A stretch of 64,000 nt of DNA from contig CAMCUD010000005.1 in assembly GCA_945878865.1 (NCBI GenBank), positions 62,001 through 126,000 of the forward strand, written 5' to 3'. Every line of letters begins with the position of its first letter. Within the stretch, counting starts at the first letter, position 1. Both the position numbers and the translations under genes were made by a program. The notes beneath the pieces are model-generated. The model was not told where the DNA came from. It saw only the letters and a list, made by a program, of their open reading frames with translations, and searched no databases. Shown one piece after another: positions 1,572 to 11,926 of the stretch. This DNA comes from Bifidobacterium breve (lineage in GTDB: Bacteria > Actinomycetota > Thermoleophilia > Solirubrobacterales > Solirubrobacteraceae).

Positions 1572-4500
1572 TCAGCCGCGGAACACCGTCAGCCCGGGAC
1601 GCAGCGCCGGCCCGCCCGCCGCCGGGGTCAGCCGCGGCTGCAGACGCAGGATGCCGACAGCCGGCCGGGCCGGAAGCGGCAAGGTGACCCGCCGTGCCTT
1701 CGGGCCGACCTTCACGGCGACCCCGCCGAGCCGCAGCACCGCCGGGACGTTCGTCGCCACGGTGACGACGACGCGCCGCGCCTTCGGCTTCACCCGAGCA
1801 GCGCGCAGCGTGCGCAGCTCGAGGGCGACCGGGTCGACACGGGTCGTGCGCTTCACGGTGGTCTCGCGGCCGAGCGTGTCGCGGGCGACGAGCCGGAGCG
1901 TCGTCCGTCCGCCCGGCAGGCGAACGCGAACGCGCTCACCGGTCCCGAGACGCTCCCGGCCGGCGAACCACGTCAGTGCGCGGCCGCGCAGCCGGCGGCC
2001 GTTCTCGTCGGCGGCCTGACCGAGCAGCACGACCTTCGCGGCGGCGGTCCCGCGGTCGCGCGGTCCGGGCAGGACGATCCGGGCGGTCGGCGGCCGTCCG
2101 TCGATACGCAGGGCCGGCGAGGTCGCCGTGGCGGTGGCGAACCCGTCGCTGACCTTGACGCGGATCCTCGCCTTCGTGCCCGCCTTCAACAGCCCCGGCG
2201 AAAGCGTCGCCGTCCCACTCGCGGCCCCGCGCAGGACGGTCCGCCACTTCGAGCGACCATCGGGGGAGAACTCGATCGAGGCCGTCAGCGGACCTCCGTC
2301 GGGATCGCCGGCGCGGTAGCGGACCTTCAGCGCGCCGCGCACCCGCGTCCCCGCCTTCGACGGCGCGAGGATCTTCACGGTGGGCGGACGGCCCTGCGCT
2401 CGCCGGTCGACGACCTCCCCGCCGGAGACGAGCTCCACGGCGGCGCTGCCCTTGGGCACCGGCGCGATGAAGGTCGTCGCACCCGAGTCGGTGCTCGTCT
2501 CCACCCGGGCGCCGGCCTCGCCGATCGTCTGTCCGGCGGCGCCCAGTCCCCGTACGCGCAGCCCGGAGCCGGGGTCGCCTGCGGGCACGACGTGCTCGGC
2601 GTCGGCGGGCTCGAGCCCGGTGATCCGCGCCCGGCCGTCGACGACCGTCCCGACGACGAATCCCGCGCCGAAGACGGTCGGCACCGTTCCCGGTGCCTGG
2701 GCGACCTTCGCGCTGCGCCGGATCGGAACCTGGAACGTGGTCGGCACCACGCTCTCGGCCTCGATCATGAAGGCGAACGCGCGGTTCCAGTTGCGCGGGG
2801 ATAGCCAGGCCGTCGGGTCACCGGTGCAGTACGACATGAAGTCCCACAGCGGCTGCGAGACGTTCGCGACGACCGTGTCGCTGTCGACGGTCCGGGCGCC
2901 GGTCGCGGGATCGAACTTCACGCCTTGCAGCCGGCCGGCCTGATCGCCCGGCCACGGCTCGCCGACCTGCCCGTTGGCGTCGCCGCCGCACGAGAGATCG
3001 CCGACGAGCCCGCCCAGGTTCTTGCCCGCGTGCGGCGCACCCAGCGTGTGGACGAGCTCGTGCGTCGCCGACGTCATCAGGCGGTTCACGGACCCGTCGT
3101 TGAGCTCCATGTAGGGCTGATTGTTCGAGCGTCCCCACTTCCCGACACCGTCGCCGTTGAAGCTCGACCCCGGCTCGGTCACGCCAGCGGTGAACTGGTA
3201 GTTGTGCAGCGCGGCGAGGACGTGGAAGCCGTCGGTCGGCGACGCCTCGACCGTTCGTGCGGGGCCGCTGGCGACCCAGGCCCGGATCGCGTTCGTCACG
3301 TTCGCGCTCGCGCAGCGGCGCAGCCGGGCCGGTGTGGCGGTTGCGGTCTCACCGCCCTCAGGAACGGGGCAGTTCGTCGCGTTGGTCGCGGTCACCGGGT
3401 CGATCTGGACCTGCGCGACGTACGGCGAGATCTGGAAGTGCTCCCCGGCGGGAAGCAGGGTGCGGGCGGACGCGAACGCGGATTCAGGCGTGCGCAGGGA
3501 CGTCAGCGTCTGCGACGGCGTCGTCACCCCGATGGTCCGGATGATCCCCGAGAACGGAAGGAACCGGGCCGGCACGTCGGTGACCTTGAACGTGTCGTTC
3601 GTGCTGCACCCGCCGGTTGCGGCCGTGAGCACCACGGCGCGTCCCTGGTCGCACTGCACGACGTTGGACGCATCGACGACCGTCACCGTGGCCTGCAGGT
3701 CGAACGTGCCGTTGGCGGCCGCCGCGATCCACGCCGCCGGGATGTCGAAGCGCACCCCGAACCGCTCGTCCCCCCGCTCGGCTTCGGTGACGGCGTCGCT
3801 CGGTGAGCTCTCCACGTTGATCGCCCGGACGGACTGGGTGAGCGCCGCGTTCACCCGCGGGCCGGCGGTCATGCGCAACCGCACCTGCAGCTGCGCGTCG
3901 ATGTGCGCGGGCAGCGCGTCGGGCGCGCGGTCGAGGTAGACGACGGCGCTCGTCGGCTTGTCAGCGTCGAGCATGACGCCCTGGTAGCGCGCCTGCTGGG
4001 TGGCGTCCCCGTTCGCCGCGCAGCCGGGAAGCACGAGGGCGGTGGGCGTGCCACCCCCGCACAGGGTCGGGAAGCCGAGGTCGCGCTGCGGGAACCCGTC
4101 GAACGCGTACTGCTTGGCGCCGCTGGAGGGCTGCACGATCTGGAAGACGTCGATCCCCCGGATGCGCATGTCGCCGACGATGCGCTGGTTCTCGACGATC
4201 GGCACCCTCGTGCTGGTGAGCGGCGCCGACTGCGGGACGATCCGGGTGGGGCCGCTCGCACCGATCGTGGCGCCTGAGCGCGTCGTCGCCGTCACGATGC
4301 AGAAGAAGCGGCGGATCGGGCTCGTCGCACTGAGGATGATGGCCGACTTGCCGGTGACGAGCTTGGCGACGCTGGGCTTGCCGCTGAGCAGGCCGCCCTC
4401 GTATTCGTAGATCTTGCGCACGAACTTCGGGTCGGCGGCCAGCCCCTCCCACGTGCCGTTGGAGCACGAGTACCGAAAGCGGCCGTCGCGCTGCGTCGTG

Positions 4501-5414
4501 CTCTCGATCTCGGGTGGGGTGACGTTGCGCGCGGGCGGATCCGGCGTGACGACGGGAGGCGCTGGAGGCGTCGGCTCGGGCGTGGGAGTCGGCGTCACCG
4601 GCGGATCGGTGGACGGGGCAGGCAGCACCCGGGGCTCGGGCCCGGGTGAGTTCTGCAGCCACGCCATCTCGACAGCCGTGAGCGCGCGCGGGTAGACGCG
4701 CACCTCGTCGAGCGTGCCCGTGTACTGGAAGCCCGGAAGTGAGCACCCGCCGTCCGGGTACCGGCCGACGCCGAGGCGCTTCTCGCCGGTGTACCGGAAG
4801 TGATCGATGCTCCCGCTCGGCGCGGGCACCTCGGAGACCGGCTGCCCGTCGAGGTACAGCGTCAGGCGACGAGTGACCTCGTCGAACGTCATACCCACGG
4901 CGTGCCACTGGCCGTCCCACACCTGTGCTGCGGGAAGCTGCGTGGTGCTGGCCGACGAGCGGGTGCCGGCGACATCCAGCGTCACGTACGCCTGCAGGCC
5001 TCCGGACGAGCCGGTGTAGATCGCGTACGCGCTGTCCGAGCACCCCAGCGCGCCCTTGCCGACGATCGTCCGGAACGGACCGGGTGTCCCGCTGCGACGC
5101 ACCCAGGCCAGCGTGGAGACCGACGTGGGGCGCAGCAGGTCCTCACGAGCGCCGACGAGGAACCCGTGGCCCGCCGCGGAGAGCTGGAGGCCGTCGCCGA
5201 ATCGCCCCGTCGTGACCGCGCCCGCGACGTCGGTCCCGGTGTTCCCCACCCCGGACGCGTCGGGCGTGGTCCCCGCCGTGACGGCGTCCAGGTGCCAGGT
5301 TCCCACCGAGGCCGTGTCCGCGCGTGCGGCGGCGGGCACCACGAGCGCCAGTCCCAGCGCAAGCACCGCACCCGTCGTCGCGCGGCGGGACATGAGACGA
5401 CAGCGGGGGCGCAT
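1572..5414 (-). CDS. Secreted LamG-domain zinc metalloprotease
   Basis: About 1280 residues, secreted. I chose the ATG at 5414 because a GGAG lies about 10 bases upstream; an ATG at 5393 has none. A signal peptide (hydrophobic core, likely cut after ARA at residue 32) leads into a LamG/concanavalin-like domain (about 38-245), then a Pro/Thr-rich linker. HELVHTLGAPH at about residue 785 is a complete HExxHxxGxxH zincin zinc site, so this is probably an active endoprotease. The C-terminal 350 or so residues look like Ig-like beta domains with the basic strands common in secreted proteins of this group. It is divergent from the kinase at 5521. Substrate and exact peptidase family are not evident. 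Confidence 0.85.
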   Translation of the reverse strand: MRPRCRLMSRRATTGAVLALGLALVVPAAARADTASVGTWHLDAVTAGTTPDASGVGNTGTDVAGAVTTGRFGDGLQLSAAGHGFLVGAREDLLRPTSVSTLAWVRRSGTPGPFRTIVGKGALGCSDSAYAIYTGSSGGLQAYVTLDVAGTRSSASTTQLPAAQVWDGQWHAVGMTFDEVTRRLTLYLDGQPVSEVPAPSGSIDHFRYTGEKRLGVGRYPDGGCSLPGFQYTGTLDEVRVYPRALTAVEMAWLQNSPGPEPRVLPAPSTDPPVTPTPTPEPTPPAPPVVTPDPPARNVTPPEIESTTQRDGRFRYSCSNGTWEGLAADPKFVRKIYEYEGGLLSGKPSVAKLVTGKSAIILSATSPIRRFFCIVTATTRSGATIGASGPTRIVPQSAPLTSTRVPIVENQRIVGDMRIRGIDVFQIVQPSSGAKQYAFDGFPQRDLGFPTLCGGGTPTALVLPGCAANGDATQQARYQGVMLDADKPTSAVVYLDRAPDALPAHIDAQLQVRLRMTAGPRVNAALTQSVRAINVESSPSDAVTEAERGDERFGVRFDIPAAWIAAAANGTFDLQATVTVVDASNVVQCDQGRAVVLTAATGGCSTNDTFKVTDVPARFLPFSGIIRTIGVTTPSQTLTSLRTPESAFASARTLLPAGEHFQISPYVAQVQIDPVTATNATNCPVPEGGETATATPARLRRCASANVTNAIRAWVASGPARTVEASPTDGFHVLAALHNYQFTAGVTEPGSSFNGDGVGKWGRSNNQPYMELNDGSVNRLMTSATHELVHTLGAPHAGKNLGGLVGDLSCGGDANGQVGEPWPGDQAGRLQGVKFDPATGARTVDSDTVVANVSQPLWDFMSYCTGDPTAWLSPRNWNRAFAFMIEAESVVPTTFQVPIRRSAKVAQAPGTVPTVFGAGFVVGTVVDGRARITGLEPADAEHVVPAGDPGSGLRVRGLGAAGQTIGEAGARVETSTDSGATTFIAPVPKGSAAVELVSGGEVVDRRAQGRPPTVKILAPSKAGTRVRGALKVRYRAGDPDGGPLTASIEFSPDGRSKWRTVLRGAASGTATLSPGLLKAGTKARIRVKVSDGFATATATSPALRIDGRPPTARIVLPGPRDRGTAAAKVVLLGQAADENGRRLRGRALTWFAGRERLGTGERVRVRLPGGRTTLRLVARDTLGRETTVKRTTRVDPVALELRTLRAARVKPKARRVVVTVATNVPAVLRLGGVAVKVGPKARRVTLPLPARPAVGILRLQPRLTPAAGGPALRPGLTVFRG

Positions 5415-5458
5415 GCCGCCGATTCTCCGCCGAGCGCCGTAGCGCCACGACCCACGAG

Positions 5459-5480
5459 AGGGGTGGTATCCACCACCCCT
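5459..5480. promoter_or_regulatory. Perfect 9-bp dyad between metalloprotease and kinase genes
   Basis: Arms AGGGGTGGT and ACCACCCCT are separated by ATCC. The dyad sits 45 bases before the metalloprotease start and 41 before the kinase start. It could be an operator acting on both divergent promoters or a hairpin in one leader. No clear -35/-10 pair was seen next to it. Confidence 0.5.
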
Positions 5481-5520
5481 TCCCGCCCACGACCACCATC
5501 TTTTCCGGTGTACTACCTGC

Positions 5521-7374
5521 ATGGTGGCGGCGGGCACAGTGGTCGGCGACTACGTCGTCGAGGCGCCTCTCGGCCGGGGCGGCATGGGCGAGGTCGTCCG
5601 CGCCCAGCACGTCGACTCCGGTCGGGTCGTCGCGTTGAAGCTCCTGTCGGACCGCGCGGACACGGGAGCGAGGCTGGAGCGTGAAGGGCGGGTGCAGGCG
5701 TCACTCGACCATCCGCACATCGTCACGGTCTACGAGGCCGGCGACTCCGAGCGAGGGCCGTGGCTGGCGATGCGCCTCGTCGACGGACCGTCACTCGCGC
5801 AGCTGCTCGAGTCTCGTGAGGTCGACGTCGCGCGCGCGCTGCGACTGCTCGCCCAGGTCGCAGAGGCCCTGGACGCCGCGCACGCGGCGGGACTCGTGCA
5901 CCGCGACGTCAAGCCGTCGAACGTCCTCGTCGGCCCCGGGGACCACGCGTACCTCGCGGACTTCGGGCTGACCCGCGCCGGCGGATCGACCGCACTGACG
6001 GCGACCGGCGCGATCGCGGGGACGGTCGCCTATCTCGCGCCGGAGGTCGCCCAGGGCCAGGAGGCGACCCCGGCGTCAGATCGCTACGCGCTGGCCGCCG
6101 TGGCGTTCGAATGCCTCTCCGGCGGCACGGTCTTCCCCCGGCCCACGGACGCCGCGGTGCTCCTGTCGCACGCCGCGGACCCTCCGCCGGCGATCAGCCG
6201 GCGGCGCCCCGAGCTGGGGACGGCGGTCGACGGCGTCTTCGAGCGCGGGCTTGCGAAGAACCCACGCGAGCGCCCCGGGAGCGCCGAGGGGTTGATCGGC
6301 GACCTGCGCCGAGCCCTCGAACGCGACGGCGCGGCGACGCTTCCGGCTCCACCGCCGGTCGGCGTCGCAGCGCTCGGGCCCGCGCTCGAGACGGCCGAGC
6401 ACGCGGTCGTCGCGCGCGCGCCGGCCTCGCGCCGTGGCGCCACCGTCCTGACGGCCATGGCCGCCGCGCTCGGGGGCGCCGCGATCGTCGCAGCGGCCTG
6501 GGCGCTGACGTCGGCGGGGGATCCGGCCGAGACGCCAGTAGCCGCCGCCGAGCCCGCAGCGATGACGTTCGTCGGCAGCGATCTGGCGGACGGGCCCGCG
6601 CGGGCGGTGGACTGCCGCGGGCTGCCGCCGACCAGTGCGTCGCCCGAGTGCACGATCGCCCAGGCGCAGCTGCCGGACGCGACGCTCGTGGTCCGCCGCA
6701 ACGGGGTGATCCGCCGGTGGAGCGTCCGCGGCGCAACCGGCGAGCTCACACTCGTTGTCCTCCGGCCGCGCGCGGACGGCGCCTTTCAGATCGCGACGTC
6801 CGCCACCGAGTCGGTGGGCAGCGCGAACCTGCAGACGTTCGCGACGGACGTCGACGTGGAGCGCGGCGATCGCGTCGGGCTCAGGGTCGCGCCCGGCTCG
6901 GCCGTCGGCGTGCGCGAGACCCCGGGTGCGACCACCGACCGCTGGCTGCCGGCGCTCAAGGGCGTCGTCGCCACCCCCGACGCTGGTGTCGAAGGCGAGG
7001 TGCTCCTGCGGGTCGGCATCGTCCCCGGCGCCCGCAGCCGCGCGCCGCGTCAGGTGACCGGCTCCGCGGCGGCCTCCCTGCCCGCCGGGAAGATCCTCGC
7101 CCGCAGGCAGACGGAGGTCGGCGCCCGCGACGTCGAGCTGCGAGCCGTCGAGGTGGGCGGCGGGCTCGTGCTCGACCTAGTCTCGGGTGGCCGCCGCCTG
7201 GCGCGCGTCGAGGTCCCCGGCGCGCGGGCCGGCGCGCAGATCGTCCAGTTTCTTGCGGCCGTCTGGACGCCGGAGCAGGCCGGCGTTGATCTCGACGTCG
7301 TCAATGCAGGCAGCGCCCGGGTGGTGCAGCACACCTATGTCGTCCAGGACCGCGGGTTCATCCTCGTCCGTTGA
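5521..7374 (+). CDS. Transmembrane Hanks-type Ser/Thr protein kinase with extracellular sensor domain
   Basis: 617 residues. The kinase domain (about 10-270) is complete: glycine loop GRGGMGEV (18-25), catalytic Lys40 in VALK, HRDVKPSN (127-134), DFG (147-149) and APE (173-175). A single membrane helix (about 307-331) is followed by about 285 extracellular residues containing a VDCRGLPP...CTIAQAQL cysteine pair and a beta-rich region. It lacks PASTA repeats, so it is not a classical PknB; the ectodomain is of a type I do not recognise. The same ectodomain recurs in the next gene, which starts 16 bases downstream and is surely co-transcribed. The FHA protein encoded just beyond is a plausible phospho-partner. 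Confidence 0.92.
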   Translation: MVAAGTVVGDYVVEAPLGRGGMGEVVRAQHVDSGRVVALKLLSDRADTGARLEREGRVQASLDHPHIVTVYEAGDSERGPWLAMRLVDGPSLAQLLESREVDVARALRLLAQVAEALDAAHAAGLVHRDVKPSNVLVGPGDHAYLADFGLTRAGGSTALTATGAIAGTVAYLAPEVAQGQEATPASDRYALAAVAFECLSGGTVFPRPTDAAVLLSHAADPPPAISRRRPELGTAVDGVFERGLAKNPRERPGSAEGLIGDLRRALERDGAATLPAPPPVGVAALGPALETAEHAVVARAPASRRGATVLTAMAAALGGAAIVAAAWALTSAGDPAETPVAAAEPAAMTFVGSDLADGPARAVDCRGLPPTSASPECTIAQAQLPDATLVVRRNGVIRRWSVRGATGELTLVVLRPRADGAFQIATSATESVGSANLQTFATDVDVERGDRVGLRVAPGSAVGVRETPGATTDRWLPALKGVVATPDAGVEGEVLLRVGIVPGARSRAPRQVTGSAAASLPAGKILARRQTEVGARDVELRAVEVGGGLVLDLVSGGRRLARVEVPGARAGAQIVQFLAAVWTPEQAGVDLDVVNAGSARVVQHTYVVQDRGFILVR

Positions 7375-7390
7375 GCGCACGCGCGTCGCG

Positions 7391-8773
7391 GTGCCCGAGG
7401 GCTTCCGCGTGGAGCGGGTGATCGCGCGAGGGTCACGCGCGACCGTGTACGAGGCGACGCAGCTGCGCCTCGGTCGGCGTGTCGCGCTGAAGGTCTACCC
7501 GGACCCCTCTCCCGATCTCGCTGACCGGGTTCGCCGAGCGGCATGGCCGGAGCATCCGGGGGCCGTCACGCTCTACGGCTCCGGCGTGGGTCCCGGCGGG
7601 GCGTGGCTCGCCATGCAGCTCGTCGGCGACGGCGCCACGCTCGACGCGCACCCGGCGCGGCTCGACGACGTGGCGGCGGCGCTCGAGTGCGCCCATGCCG
7701 CCGGGACGGCGCACGGCGCCGTACGCGCCGACAACGTGCTCGTCTCCGGCTCGCGCGCGCTCTTGACGAACTGGGGCCTGATCCCTGGAACGGCCGCCGA
7801 GGACCATCTCGCACTCGCGCGGCTTCGACAGACGCATCAGCCCCCGCGCCGCCACCGGGCGCTCGCCGCCGCCGTCGGGATCGGCGCCCTGGTGGTCGCC
7901 GCCGGCGCCGCGGTCGCGATCACCCGCGACGACTCCCGGGCTCTGACGAGCCCGGCGGGGATCGTCCTGGGCAGCGACCCGCCCGGCGCGGCGATCACGA
8001 GCGTCGACTGCACCGGCCGGCCGCCCCGCGGCAGCTCCCCGGCCTGCACGCTGATGCCTGAGCGCTTGCGCGGGCGTGCCCTGGTCGTCCCACGCGACGG
8101 CACCGTCATCTCGTGGGCGGTGCGCGGCGCGCGCGGCCCGCTCGCCCTGCAGGTGCTGCGCCGCCAGCGCGGAGGGTACGTCGCCGTCGCGCGGTCGCGC
8201 GACGTCACGATCCCCGGCCCGAGCCGTGCGGTCCTCCCGGCGAACCTCGCGGTGGCCGCAGGTGACCGGATTGCGCTGGAGGTCGCCCCGGACGCCGCGG
8301 TGGGAATCCGCCGCGTGGCCGGCGCTGCGACCGCGCGCTGGATCGGGCCGCTGAGCTGGGAGCCCCGGCCGCCGGACCTCCCGGCCGGAACCGGGCTGGA
8401 CGTCGAAGTCGCGCTCCAAGTCGTCCTGCGACCCGGCGCGCGGCGCACGAGGATCACGCCGGTCCGTGGCGCTCGTGCGACGCGCGTTCCCGCGGGACTC
8501 GTCCTCGCCACACGGGACGTGCGCACTGCCGGAGGCGCACGGACCGTGACGGTCGTCGCGCTCGGGGGCGCCGTCGCGCTCGACCTGTACGACGGGACGA
8601 CCCGGCGCGCGCGTGTCGGGCTGCCCGGGGCGGACGGCCGCGGCAGGCTCATCGCTGCGGAGCGAGCGGGCGCCGGCCGGCTCGTCGTGCGCTGGCGCAA
8701 CCCGGGCGGGGCGGTGCTGACCCGCACGGCCCGGGCCGGACCGGACGTGATCAGCGCAGATCCGCGCGGGTGA
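7391..8773 (+). CDS. Membrane pseudokinase with ectodomain related to the upstream kinase
   Basis: About 460 residues from GTG 7391, the first in-frame start after the upstream stop. The N-terminal 150 residues are a worn kinase domain: VALK keeps Lys34, but the catalytic loop reads HGAVRADN (108-115), where HRD-K is lost, and DFG is NWG (127-129). No APE and almost no C-lobe follow, so catalysis is very unlikely. A membrane helix (about 157-177) leads to an extracellular part that aligns by eye with the upstream ectodomain, including IVLGSDPPG...VDCTGRPP...CTL and the stretch around AVGIR. It probably arose by tandem duplication and may act as co-receptor or inhibitor. Its last 23 bases overlap the convergent FHA gene. 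Confidence 0.85.
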   Translation: MPEGFRVERVIARGSRATVYEATQLRLGRRVALKVYPDPSPDLADRVRRAAWPEHPGAVTLYGSGVGPGGAWLAMQLVGDGATLDAHPARLDDVAAALECAHAAGTAHGAVRADNVLVSGSRALLTNWGLIPGTAAEDHLALARLRQTHQPPRRHRALAAAVGIGALVVAAGAAVAITRDDSRALTSPAGIVLGSDPPGAAITSVDCTGRPPRGSSPACTLMPERLRGRALVVPRDGTVISWAVRGARGPLALQVLRRQRGGYVAVARSRDVTIPGPSRAVLPANLAVAAGDRIALEVAPDAAVGIRRVAGAATARWIGPLSWEPRPPDLPAGTGLDVEVALQVVLRPGARRTRITPVRGARATRVPAGLVLATRDVRTAGGARTVTVVALGGAVALDLYDGTTRRARVGLPGADGRGRLIAAERAGAGRLVVRWRNPGGAVLTRTARAGPDVISADPRG

Positions 8774-9422
8774 CGATGCCCTGCTCGAGCGCCACCCGTG
8801 CGAGCTCGGTGCGCTTGCGGTACTGCGGCAGGTCGCCGACGCCGAGCTTGGTGAACAGCGACCGCACGTGCGTCTTGACCCCGTCGACGGAGAGATGCAG
8901 CGCGTCGGCGATCTCCCGGTTCGTCGCCGGGACCAGCCCGGCGACGCCGTCGTCGGCCAGCGGCCGGCACAGGGCGACGAGCACGCGGCGCTCAGCGTCG
9001 GTCAGGCGTACCGGCTGGTTCGAGGCGGCGGCGACCGTACTCGGCGCCGCCGTGCCTGGCGCGCGGAAGACCAGCGTGGTCTCGCCCAGACGCAGCACGT
9101 CCCCGTCGACGAGGCGACGGCGCGCAGCCACGCGTTCGCCGTTGACCTGCGAGCCGTTGCGTGACAGCCCATCGTCCAGCAGGGTCCAGTCGTGGCCGAC
9201 CCGCTCAAGCTGGGCGTGCGATCGGGAGACGAGCGGGTCCCAGTCGACCACGAGATCGTTGCCCGGAACCCGCCCGATCGACAGCCGCTGAAGCCCGGCG
9301 AGTTCGGTGAAGCGCAGGTCGCCGTGCCGGTCGCGGTAGATCAGGAACGGCATACCGCGACGCTCGACGTCCAGCGTGGCCTTCATCTCGGCCGGCGACA
9401 GGATGTGCGTTGCGACACGCAT
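8751..9422 (-). CDS. FHA-domain transcription factor with LuxR-like HTH
   Basis: 223 residues from ATG 9422. The FHA domain (about 25-120) has its hallmarks: GR (50-51), SRSH (66-69) and SRNGSQVNG (87-95), the residues that read phosphothreonine peptides. The C-terminal part (about 135-223) carries TNREIADALHLSVDGVKTHV, a helix-turn-helix resembling LuxR/winged-helix DNA-binding domains, followed by a region resembling LuxR C-terminal helices. It should be cytoplasmic and bind DNA in response to Thr phosphorylation. Its neighbours are a Ser/Thr kinase and a pseudokinase, so a direct kinase-to-transcription-factor route is a reasonable inference. The 3' end overlaps the pseudokinase gene convergently. 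Confidence 0.88.
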   Translation of the reverse strand: MRVATHILSPAEMKATLDVERRGMPFLIYRDRHGDLRFTELAGLQRLSIGRVPGNDLVVDWDPLVSRSHAQLERVGHDWTLLDDGLSRNGSQVNGERVAARRRLVDGDVLRLGETTLVFRAPGTAAPSTVAAASNQPVRLTDAERRVLVALCRPLADDGVAGLVPATNREIADALHLSVDGVKTHVRSLFTKLGVGDLPQYRKRTELARVALEQGIVTRADLR

Positions 9423-9450
9423 CGTCCCGATTGTCCTGCATCGCGCTGCG

Positions 9451-9485
9451 GCGCGGAGGGCGTCCCCGGGGGACGCCCTCCGCGC
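9451..9485 (-). terminator. Perfect 17-bp inverted repeat after subtilase gene
   Basis: Positions 9451-9467 and 9469-9485 are exact reverse complements, forming a long GC-only stem beginning 8 bases past the subtilase stop. There is no U-run, so it is a stem-only terminator candidate or a block between the subtilase and FHA genes. Confidence 0.6.
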
Positions 9486-9493
9486 CGGCTGGC

Positions 9494-10666
9494 TCAGCTG
9501 GCAGCCGCCAGGTTCAGCAGCCGGTTCTGCGTCGTCGTGCACCCGAAGAAGATGTACGTGCAGTACGTCCGGATGCTGGTGACCTTGCCCTTGACGGACC
9601 GGTCGACGATCGCCTGCTGGACCTGTGCCGGCGTCAATGCCGGGGTGGCCGACAGCAGCCGCGCTGCCACGCCCGCGGCGTGCGGCGTGGCCATCGACGT
9701 GCCGTTGTAGCTCGCCGTCGCGGTGTCCGACGAGCTGACCGCCGACACGACGCCGACGCCCGGCGCGATGACGTCGACACAGGAGCCGGTGTTCGAGAAC
9801 GACGCGAACTTGTCGGTCTGGTCGCTGGCCGCCACGGTGATCGCGTTCGCGACACGAGCCGGCGAGCTCGTGCAAGCCGTGGTGCTGCTGTTGCCGGCGG
9901 CGACGGAGACGGACACGCCGTCGTTGACGAGGTTGTTCACCGCCGTGTCGACGGCCGAGCTGGCGCCACCGCCCAGGCTCATGTTCGCCACGGCCGGCTG
10001 CCCCGCCTGGTGGTTAGCGATTGCCCAATCGATGCCGGCGATGACGTTCGTGTTCGTGCCGCTGCCGTCGCAGCCCAGCACCCGGACGGCGATGAGCCGC
10101 GTCGCCTTCGCGACGCCGTAGGTCTTGCCGCCGATCGTGCCCGCGACGTGCGTGCCGTGGCCGTTGCAGTCCTGGCCGTTGCCGCCGGTCGCGTCCTTGC
10201 CGATGACCGCGCGGCCCTCGAACTCGGTGTGCGTCGTGCGGATCCCGGTGTCGATCACGTAGGCGTCGACCCCGGCGCCCGCCGACGTGTACGAGTAGCT
10301 GCTGCTCAGCGGCAGCGCGGCTTGATCGATGCGGTCCAGGCCCCACGGCGGCGCGGCCTGCGTCGCCGAGATGGACATCCGCTGCTCCGGCTCGATGCTG
10401 ATCTGCCCCGGCAGCCGGACCTTGCCCGGCAGCTTGACGGGCAGCGTGATGACGACGCCGTTGATGGCCCGCTGGTAAGCCGCCACGACATCGCCGCCGA
10501 GCGGCGCGAGCCGCTGATCGATCTCCGCCGCGCGGGCGGGCGCGGCCCCGTCCGCGCGGTCGAGCTGCACGATGTACCGGTAGTTCTGCGCCTGGGCGAC
10601 GCCCGGCGCCGCGATGGCTCCCGCCAGTGCGCACGCCGCGACCGCGACCAGATGACGACCCTGCAT
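9494..10666 (-). CDS. Secreted subtilisin-like serine protease (S8, proteinase K type)
   Basis: 390 residues. The start at 10666 has a strong GGAGGAG site 6 bases upstream. A signal peptide (about 1-26, VAQA) is followed by an inhibitor I9-type propeptide (about 28-103) and the S8 catalytic domain. The triad is intact: Asp139 ([10 protein letters not shown]), His170 ([13 protein letters not shown]) and Ser324 ([12 protein letters not shown]). Six cysteines suggest extracellular disulfides. It should mature outside the cell as an endopeptidase. It belongs spatially to the kinase/FHA island and could be an output or a processing enzyme for the ectodomains; that link is inference. It ends in a strong hairpin. 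Confidence 0.93.
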
Positions 10667-10755
10667 AGGTGACTCCTCCCCCTGCGCGGACGCCCCTGCG
10701 CCCGCCGTGTGACCGGGCCATCCTCTCACCCGACGCAAGCCCGCGCCCGAGAACG

Positions 10756-10861
10756 ACGAAGGGCGCCCCACAGGACGCCCTTCGTACGACGCTGGTCACG
10801 GATGATTCGGCTCTGCCGAATCATCCAATGAAGTAGCGAGCCCCCTGGGCGAGCTACTTCA
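10756..10861 (-). terminator. Three stacked hairpins after rplL
   Basis: In transcription order: a 9-bp stem 10829-10837/10853-10861 that includes the rplL stop codon, a perfect 12-bp stem 10800-10811/10815-10826 with a 3-base loop, and a 10-bp stem 10756-10765/10776-10785. None has a U-run. Together they probably stop the ribosomal operon and could also block reverse transcription. Confidence 0.65.
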
Positions 10862-11237
10862 CCTCGACAGAGGCGCCAGCCTCCTCGAGCTCCGCCTTCA
10901 GCTTGTCGGCCTCGTCGCGCTCGATGCCCTCCTTGACGGGCTTCGGAGCCTCGTCGACGAGCGCCTTGGCCTCCTTCAGGCCCAGGCCGGTCGCCGCGCG
11001 GACGACCTTGATGACCTGGATCTTCTTGTCGCCGGCGCCGGTCAGGATGACGTCGACGGTCGAGGACTCCTCCGCGGCGGCCTCGCCGCCACCGCCACCG
11101 CCCGCGGCGGCCGGGGCCGCAGCGGCGACGGCCGTCGCCGACACGCCGAACTCCTCCTCGAGCGCCTTGATGCGCTCGGCCAGCTCGAGCACCGAAATGC
11201 TCTTGAGCTCGTCAATCCACTCTGCAGTCGTCGCCAT
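10854..11237 (-). CDS. rplL: 50S ribosomal protein L7/L12
   Basis: 127 residues. The N-terminal dimerisation helices (about 1-35), an Ala/Gly hinge (about 36-55) and the C-terminal factor-binding domain with [20 protein letters not shown] and a closing GASVEVK are all standard. L7/L12 forms the ribosomal stalk with L10 and recruits translation GTPases. It starts 2 bases after the rplJ stop. Usually rpoB follows this gene; here a hairpin array and a protease gene follow instead. Confidence 0.98.
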
Positions 11238-11239
11238 GG

Positions 11240-11926
11240 TTACTCCTCGTTGTTCTCAGTGGGGGTGTCCTCAGCCGGGGCCGCATCGGCCTCGGCCTCG
11301 GGGGCGGACTCAGCCTCGGCCTCAGCGGCCGGGGCCTCCTCGGCGGGCGCCTCGGCGTCAGCCGCGGGAGCGGCCTCAGCAGCAGGAGCCTCGCCTGCGG
11401 GCAGTTCGCCCGAAGCCTTCTTGTCGTTGACCGCGGCGAGCGCGATCGCCAAGCCGCCGAGCAGCCCGTTGAGGCTGCGGGCGAGACCCGTGATCGGGGA
11501 CGCGACGATGCCGACGAGCTGCCCGTACAGGACCTCGCGCGACGGCAGCTTGCTGATCGCCGTGATGTCGTCGGCGCTCAGGGCGTTGCCGTCCATGAGG
11601 CCGCCCTTGAAGGGCAGCAGCTCGGTCTCCTTCGCGGCGTCGCTCAGGGTCTTCGCCGCCGCAGCGGCGTCGCCCTTGACGAACGCGAGGGCCGTCGGGC
11701 CCTCCAGGAGGGCCTTCAGCGCGTCGGCGCCGGCCTGGTCGGCGGCACGCTCGGTGAGCGTGTTCTTGACCACGCGGAAGGTCGTGTCCGACTCGCGCAG
11801 CTTCGCGCGGACGTCGGCGACCTGCGCCACCGTGATCCCGCGGTAGTCCACGGCGAACACGGCCTGGCTCTCGTTGATCTCAGCGGTGATCTCATCGATC
11901 ACCGCAGCTTTTTCTGCTCGGTTCAC
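11240..11926 (-). CDS. rplJ: 50S ribosomal protein L10 with acidic Ala/Glu tail
   Basis: 228 residues from a GTG at 11926 with GAGGAGG 5 bases upstream. The first 168 or so residues are ordinary L10, including the C-terminal helix that binds L7/L12 dimers. The last 60 residues are a low-complexity Ala/Glu/Pro tail with no counterpart in short L10 proteins of about 165-180 residues. Such tails occur in some actinobacteria, and their role is unknown. It is co-transcribed with rplL (2-base gap) and separated from rplA by a structured 75-base leader. Confidence 0.97.

Follow-up and report, generated by a model that had tools for sequence, protein, structure and literature searches.

A transmembrane Ser/Thr kinase, a truncated pseudokinase twin and an FHA-HTH regulator as a candidate signalling cassette in Solirubrobacterales

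We analysed a 64,000-nucleotide stretch of contig CAMCUD010000005.1 (positions 62,001 to 126,000 of the forward strand; assembly GCA_945878865.1), hereafter the window, which belongs to a draft genome of 4.96 Mb in 79 contigs. Next to rplL, the window carries an intact transmembrane Ser/Thr kinase (K), a kinase-like twin (pK) and a regulator that joins a forkhead-associated (FHA) domain to a LuxR-type helix-turn-helix (HTH), labelled FHA-HTH. We use the term cassette for K, with or without pK, together with FHA-HTH. On balance, we favor the reading that these genes form a conserved three-gene cassette in which a receptor kinase and its pseudokinase co-receptor would signal to the FHA transcription factor.

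Conservation was assessed in 199 genomes of the class, 232 genomes of the order and, for the phylum, a sample of 296 genomes in which the class was also represented. Strong matches to the ectodomain of K were found in 5 of the 199 class genomes (two more were weak) and in 13 of the 232 order genomes, giving a combined total of 15 loci in 14 genomes (G350 has two) from families f1, f2, f3 and f5. FHA-HTH lay within approximately 1.5 kb of K or pK at all 15 loci, and the ectodomain kinase was never found without it; pK was present at nine. The first-pass annotation of the window had grouped the kinase, the second kinase-like gene and the regulator, and this grouping stands. Where pK intervenes, K and FHA-HTH are 1.4 to about 2.5 kb apart; G331 has an intervening gene that reads, from its translation, as decarboxylase-like. 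The surroundings and gene orders vary, FHA-HTH being first, last or convergent, and the members remain together. In G348 and G178, the contig ends within the kinase gene, leaving the kinase domain out of view. A scan of contigs from 84,980 species, restricted to one peptide pattern and possibly excluding the window's own record, returned five loci. Among relatives that have names, the locus was found in five metagenome-assembled genomes, two from uncultured Solirubrobacteraceae, two from Thermoleophilaceae and one from an 'Actinobacteria bacterium'; on this kinship alone, it is reasonable to place the window in Thermoleophilia. Pairwise distances at eight loci were correlated for K and pK (r 0.87, p 0.0004), K and FHA-HTH (r 0.69, p 0.0002) and pK and FHA-HTH (r 0.56, p 0.006), as expected for co-inherited genes; common descent alone would produce the same.

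K matched the Pkinase family of Pfam (E 2.5e-37). The catalytic Lys40, HRDVKPSN at residue 127, DFG at 147, an activation-loop TAT at 160–162 and APE at 173 all lie in one domain, and with the transmembrane stretch they place K among the Hanks-type receptor kinases. The best PDB sequence match of K was PknE. No PASTA domain, the mark of the PknB/Stk1 kinases, was matched in K by Pfam, and the Stk1 PASTA-kinase model scored 226.5 bits, below its cut-off of 450.

pK aligns with K across the N-lobe, alphaE and the catalytic loop; beyond these, it has neither activation segment nor APE, and most of the C-lobe is gone. The window copy has HGA in place of HRD and NWG in place of DFG, i.e., both Asp residues are lost (to Ala and Asn, respectively), and the VAIK-type Lys is retained; pK thus shows the loss of catalytic motifs or needed segments by which bacterial pseudokinases are recognized. 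Because codon 7370 is GTT, the GTG at 7391, which sits 16 nt past the stop codon of K, is the likeliest start. Eight of the nine copies could be read; the contig of G375 (L095) is broken by frameshifts and was dropped from the motif count and the pair distances, its pieces being retained as rows in the ectodomain and FHA-HTH trees. The activation segment and APE were missing in all eight, and by our reading of the alignment the Lys was lost in four, the HRD Asp in five and the DFG Asp in four. The kinase part of pK comprises about 155 residues in its model (mean predicted local distance difference test score, pLDDT, 77.6), which contains the N-lobe, alphaE, short strands, one further helix and the transmembrane helix. 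This model matched the folds of PknB (Z 15.6) and MviN (3otv, Rv3910; Z 14.1). In the sequence search against the PDB, the bacterial names among the best 60 matches were active kinases, and MviN was not among the matches listed. The ratio of nonsynonymous to synonymous substitutions (dN/dS) between the window and G350, a single genome pair with dS of 0.7–1.1 treated by the Nei–Gojobori method (NG86) only, was 0.28 for the kinase part of pK and 0.38 for its ectodomain, compared with 0.34 and 0.36 for K and 0.31 for FHA-HTH, suggesting that pK is under constraint like K. We regard pK as a putative non-catalytic scaffold or brake, not an enzyme.

The ectodomains of K (about 280 residues) and pK share 39% identity over 241 residues, and a Cys pair and a W-x-V-R motif are invariant across the 10 rows of K and pK ectodomains. 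The model of the K ectodomain (pLDDT 91.4, from a 12-row alignment) has two parts. Part 1 (residues 13–171) is a predicted lectin- or carbohydrate-binding module (CBM)-like jelly roll; its best match was the lectin-like domain of Cwp84 (Z 11.5, root-mean-square deviation 2.7, 142 residues aligned), followed by the central fibre of mycobacteriophage Douge (Z 10.3) and polymer- and carbohydrate-esterase modules (Z 8 to 9). Part 2 (residues 188–285) consists of sheets resembling propeller blades (Z up to 9.3), a common arrangement. Foldseek gave no match to the K ectodomain at E 0.001 or better, the best being 7.7e-3. From the predicted folds, a glycan ligand is plausible. In a tree of 24 ectodomains (23 different), three groups corresponded to K of tandem loci (nine), K of solo loci (six) and pK (nine); the pK group had support of 82/98, the first figure lying under the 95 mark. 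A further 41 genomes of the 232 had weaker ectodomain matches (E 5e-19 to 5e-4), most of which fell in the first half of the profile; one that was inspected (L035) belonged to a secreted-looking protein.

These data also bear on a reading that we consider possible but clearly less probable than the favored one, in which K and FHA-HTH are a functional pair and pK acts mainly outside the cell, as a ligand-sharing or decoy ectodomain whose kinase remnant is a mere folded anchor and takes no part in phospho-signalling. The shortness of the remnant and the unequal erosion of its motifs would fit such a role, as would the invariance of the Cys pair, a Trp and several Gly residues in the 10 ectodomain rows. 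However, the truncated domain is constrained like that of K, as judged from the one pair compared, and is modelled with a kinase fold close to that of PknB.

The regulator consists of an N-terminal FHA domain (E 1.5e-14) and a C-terminal HTH of the GerE family (E 6.2e-7) in Pfam. Over 49 rows of FHA-HTH proteins, the Ser, His, Asn and Gly that contact phosphothreonine were kept in 49, the Arg of GR in 48 and the Arg after Ser in 40. With these contact residues intact, FHA-HTH is predicted to read phosphothreonine. Among the best 40 FHA-HTH matches of the class, 39 were fetched with wider flanks, and a kinase domain lay within 3 kb of FHA-HTH at 28 of these, or at 23 of 34 when the five cassette loci are excluded. 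L032 enters this count by its pK because a contig end cuts the kinase gene. The 40th match (G005:C39, L152), a short locus of 2.6 kb outside the 39, had no kinase match. By our estimate, chance proximity would be expected at one or two per cent, given about ten further kinases in 5 Mb. Outside the class, the phylum sample contained 18 FHA-HTH loci in 15 genomes (E 1e-30 or better), nine of which had a kinase-domain match in the 1.5-kb flank. The pairing of FHA-HTH with kinases is wider than this cassette, suggesting that direct kinase-to-transcription-factor pairs are common in the phylum. At L050:3171-6957 of G081, a motif-intact kinase domain and another that lacks an HRD-type motif (192 bits) stand with an FHA-HTH, and the set has no BLAST match to the lectin-like ectodomain; it is possibly an independent kinase/pseudokinase/FHA set.

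The genes might also stand together through chance or descent at one locus, with no common function. Tandem duplication accounts for K lying next to pK, and neighbourhoods are shared among related genomes. Nevertheless, the cassette remains intact in differing surroundings and gene orders, and FHA-HTH recurs beside kinases that have no BLAST match to this ectodomain; we consider this explanation quite improbable.

Under the favored reading, we infer the following course of events. The lectin-like ectodomains of both K and pK would bind a ligand, either a glycan or another polymer, from the envelope or surroundings, and the two proteins would assemble as receptor and co-receptor. K would autophosphorylate, probably on an activation-loop Thr, and would phosphorylate pK, FHA-HTH or both. 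The FHA domain would then dock on a phosphothreonine of K or pK, and docking would switch the LuxR-type HTH and change transcription; the targets might perhaps include nearby genes for large secreted proteins, as the counts given below faintly hint. Alternatively, K and pK may be an obligate two-chain receptor of a glycan from the surface or the environment; the truncated pK would dock FHA-HTH through phosphorylated sites and keep it at the membrane until a signal arrives. No description of a bacterial system that joins a receptor, a co-receptor and a latent transcription factor in that way was found in the literature search, and we hold this version only tentatively.

In the window, the gene order beside rplL is a metalloprotease-like gene (−), K (+), pK (+), FHA-HTH (−) and a subtilase gene (−), and the adjacent run reads rplL-rplJ-rplA-rplK-nusG-secE in the window translations. 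The first-pass annotation had joined all five genes into one envelope island; their open reading frames (ORFs), strands and order were confirmed, and the motifs and domain matches were found. Read as an island, both proteases would be dedicated effectors of the kinase, which we consider very unlikely. Membership of the subtilase in the set is not supported: in G349, on one contig, it has the same flank gene on one side and rplL on the other, without a cassette. The order is flank gene, subtilase, cassette and rplL in G350, and flank gene, metalloprotease, cassette, subtilase and rplL in the window. By these three orders, the cassette is a unit at a site that also hosts the subtilase alone. For G178, G347, G348 and G375, the stretches of 14–15 kb around the closest subtilases contain no kinase or FHA-HTH match, and a hairpin divides the subtilase gene from FHA-HTH in the window. 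A second subtilase copy beside the first in G349 (L118, approximately 8678-11141; G349:C1:4803686-4806140) was matched as two overlapping pieces in different frames and is perhaps broken.

The metalloprotease has a weak claim to membership. HELVHTLGAPH, from residue 786 of P0005, fits HExxHxxGxxH, which we take to be the metzincin consensus, and no Pfam protease family scored above its cut-off in P0005. Eight relatives (E 1e-10 or better) were found in 6 of the 232 order genomes. Two of these adjoin a cassette, namely those of the window and G347, the latter being divergent from its cassette (32.5% identity over 864 residues, HExxH intact). For the other six, the stretch fetched contained neither a kinase nor FHA-HTH, four of these stretches being whole contigs of only 5–6 kb. 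The neighbour in G348 is a distant relative without HExxH. On contig C1 of the window genome, a second metalloprotease (56% over 1280 residues) is separated by about 1.1 kb from a subtilase-like gene (L123:4901-6340, 7445-11344), and no kinase or FHA-HTH match was found in the 19 kb fetched. We did not retain the five-gene island as one unit, given a subtilase that is cassette-free in G349 and on the opposite side of the cassette in G350 and a metalloprotease adjoining the cassette in two of eight copies; the two protease genes appear to be mostly neighbours of the core.

Other cassette neighbours include an M28 peptidase (G077), a DUF5122 propeller protein (G370) and CARDB and PASTA proteins (G203), all by Pfam, and propeller-like-repeat proteins in G178 and G124, by reading. 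With a home-made secretion predictor applied to 14 of the 15 loci (L093, a near copy of L092, was omitted), large secreted-like genes were commoner near cassettes (15/50) than farther away (13/119; Fisher p 0.003), which would also suit an island. At least three positives are doubtful, namely an antisense ORF at 72-1436 of the window and GGDEF/EAL proteins in L086 and L088 (the latter judged by likeness of length and place), and at least three probably secreted neighbours were missed, i.e., the subtilase of L087 and the repeat proteins of L034 and L094. We treat a secreted output of the cassette as a lead, not a result.

Several findings weigh against the favored reading. pK is missing from 6 of the 15 loci, so that the kinase/FHA-HTH pair exists without it, and the co-occurrence proposed in the first-pass annotation holds for the kinase and the regulator but only in part for the pseudokinase. 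The Lys, the HRD-type Asp and the DFG Asp are all retained in two of the eight readable pK (G350a and G370); because of this, the term 'inactive' rests for these two on the missing activation segment and C-lobe. The second kinase domain of G375, on the frame-broken contig, is not visibly degenerate and is nearly the same as the first, which may reflect either an artefact or conversion. FHA-HTH proteins of tandem loci are split over two pieces of the FHA tree, those of solo loci falling in one; partner exchange is therefore possible. Moreover, 11 of the 39 class FHA-HTH loci have no kinase within 3 kb, five of them near a contig end (L039, L042, L098, L105 and L106), and the excess of secreted neighbours depends on a predictor with known errors.

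The features of the region are collected in Table 1. The perfect dyad between the divergent metalloprotease and K genes, to which the first reading had drawn attention, is real and unexceptional: in the 64 kb, 81 perfect inverted repeats were counted (arms of at least 8, loops of at most 8, nested repeats scored separately), where 10 first-order Markov sequences had 57 on average, and the dyad was not found ahead of the kinase gene in the congener locus L087. It remains a possible candidate operator, and we dropped it as evidence on both grounds. The hairpin at 9450-9486 occupies a terminator-like place, and no T run was seen. The string TGTACTAC occurs a few bases 5' of the kinase start in the window (5508-5521) and in L087 near 7930, both congeners, and is a possible promoter element. 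Near tandem cassettes, we observed NarL-type response regulators (L031:5327-6052; L032:3261-3995 and 4079-4813; L034:10054-10746), one of the four lying below the Pfam cut-off. Their receivers carry Gly (VGIPMPP or VGIPMPA, VGIPAAP) at what we take to be the site of the expected phosphoacceptor Asp, and they may be pseudo-receivers next to a pseudokinase.

Table 1. Features of the cassette and its flanks in the window.
Feature	Position	Strand	Basis
Secreted LamG-containing metalloprotease-like protein (P0005), neighbour	1572..5414 (start 5414 or 5393)	-	HELVHTLGAPH
Inverted repeat AGGGGTGGT-ATCC-ACCACCCCT between divergent genes	5459..5480	.	9-bp perfect arms, 4-nt spacer
Transmembrane Hanks-type Ser/Thr kinase K, 617 aa (P0001)	5521..7374	+	motifs, Pfam
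Transmembrane stretch of K	6445..6507	+	hydrophobic stretch in sequence
K ectodomain: predicted lectin/CBM-like jelly roll and second beta domain with propeller-blade-like sheets	6529..7371	+	model
Truncated pseudokinase pK: N-lobe, alphaE, catalytic-loop region; transmembrane stretch; ectodomain	7391..8773 (start approximate)	+	alignment, model
Transmembrane stretch of pK	7859..7921	+	sequence; model helix 160-177
pK ectodomain, related to that of K	7931..8770	+	alignment
FHA and LuxR-type HTH regulator (P0003), convergent with pK, coding ends overlapping by 23 bp	8751..9422	-	Pfam
Hairpin, 18-bp perfect arms, 1-nt loop, between subtilase and FHA-HTH genes	9450..9486	.	sequence reading; core also in the inverted-repeat count
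Secreted subtilase (S8), neighbour	9494..10666	-	Asp/His/Ser motif strings

To our knowledge, the dedicated targets of bacterial Ser/Thr kinases and the partners of bacterial pseudokinases are seldom known. A cassette kept across families names a sensor kinase, a pseudokinase and a DNA-binding protein predicted to read phosphothreonine together, and because all three partners are named at once, the role of the pseudokinase is open to direct test. The claim of the first-pass annotation that no system of this composition has been described stood for the unit itself, on which no paper was listed in a literature search that left most subscription journals outside its reach, and gave way for its parts, which have precedents in PknH-EmbR and PknB-MviN-FhaA (PMC4601284 and PMC12599244).

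A close likeness in the phylum is that of the other FHA-LuxR HTH/Ser-Thr kinase pairs, in which the same FHA-HTH family stands beside kinase domains. Beyond the 15 cassette loci, these pairs showed no strong match to the ectodomain, no systematic search for a twin having been made, and the literature search listed no paper on them. PknH-EmbR likewise combines a Ser/Thr kinase with an FHA-containing transcription factor. The pknH and embR genes are adjacent, and the ectodomain of PknH differs from that of K. In Mycobacterium tuberculosis, this transcription factor is a substrate of the kinase, and its FHA domain is needed for the interaction (PMC4601284). In a PDB sequence search, P0003 matched the EmbR structure 2fez (E 4.5e-4), the match lying in the FHA part, and an FHA protein with a DNA-binding domain lies near a kinase gene here as well. 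In contrast to EmbR, the regulator has its FHA domain at the N-terminus and a LuxR-type HTH at the C-terminus; Pfam listed a GerE/LuxR HTH and no BTA domain, so the Streptomyces antibiotic regulatory protein (SARP) architecture is absent. The pseudokinase twin is a further difference from PknH-EmbR.

PknB-MviN-FhaA shares with the cassette a kinase, a membrane pseudokinase and an FHA protein. FhaA is not known to have an HTH. As described in PMC12599244, an active kinase acts there with a membrane pseudokinase bearing an activation-loop deletion, whose phosphorylated tail recruits the FHA protein; the MviN pseudokinase is part of a transmembrane peptidoglycan-synthesis protein (MurJ), and its group, ActPs3, is marked by the activation-loop deletion, a transmembrane segment after the kinase domain in many members and complete degradation of the catalytic motifs. 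pK has the deletion and the transmembrane segment. We did not adopt it as a member of ActPs3, given that its catalytic motifs are incompletely degraded, the Lys being kept in the window and all three residues in G350a and G370. Unlike MviN, pK is related to the kinase beside which it stands in tandem and has an ectodomain of its own, and the FHA protein here has an HTH. Lacking one defining feature of each system, the cassette yet merges features of PknH-EmbR with those of PknB-MviN-FhaA.

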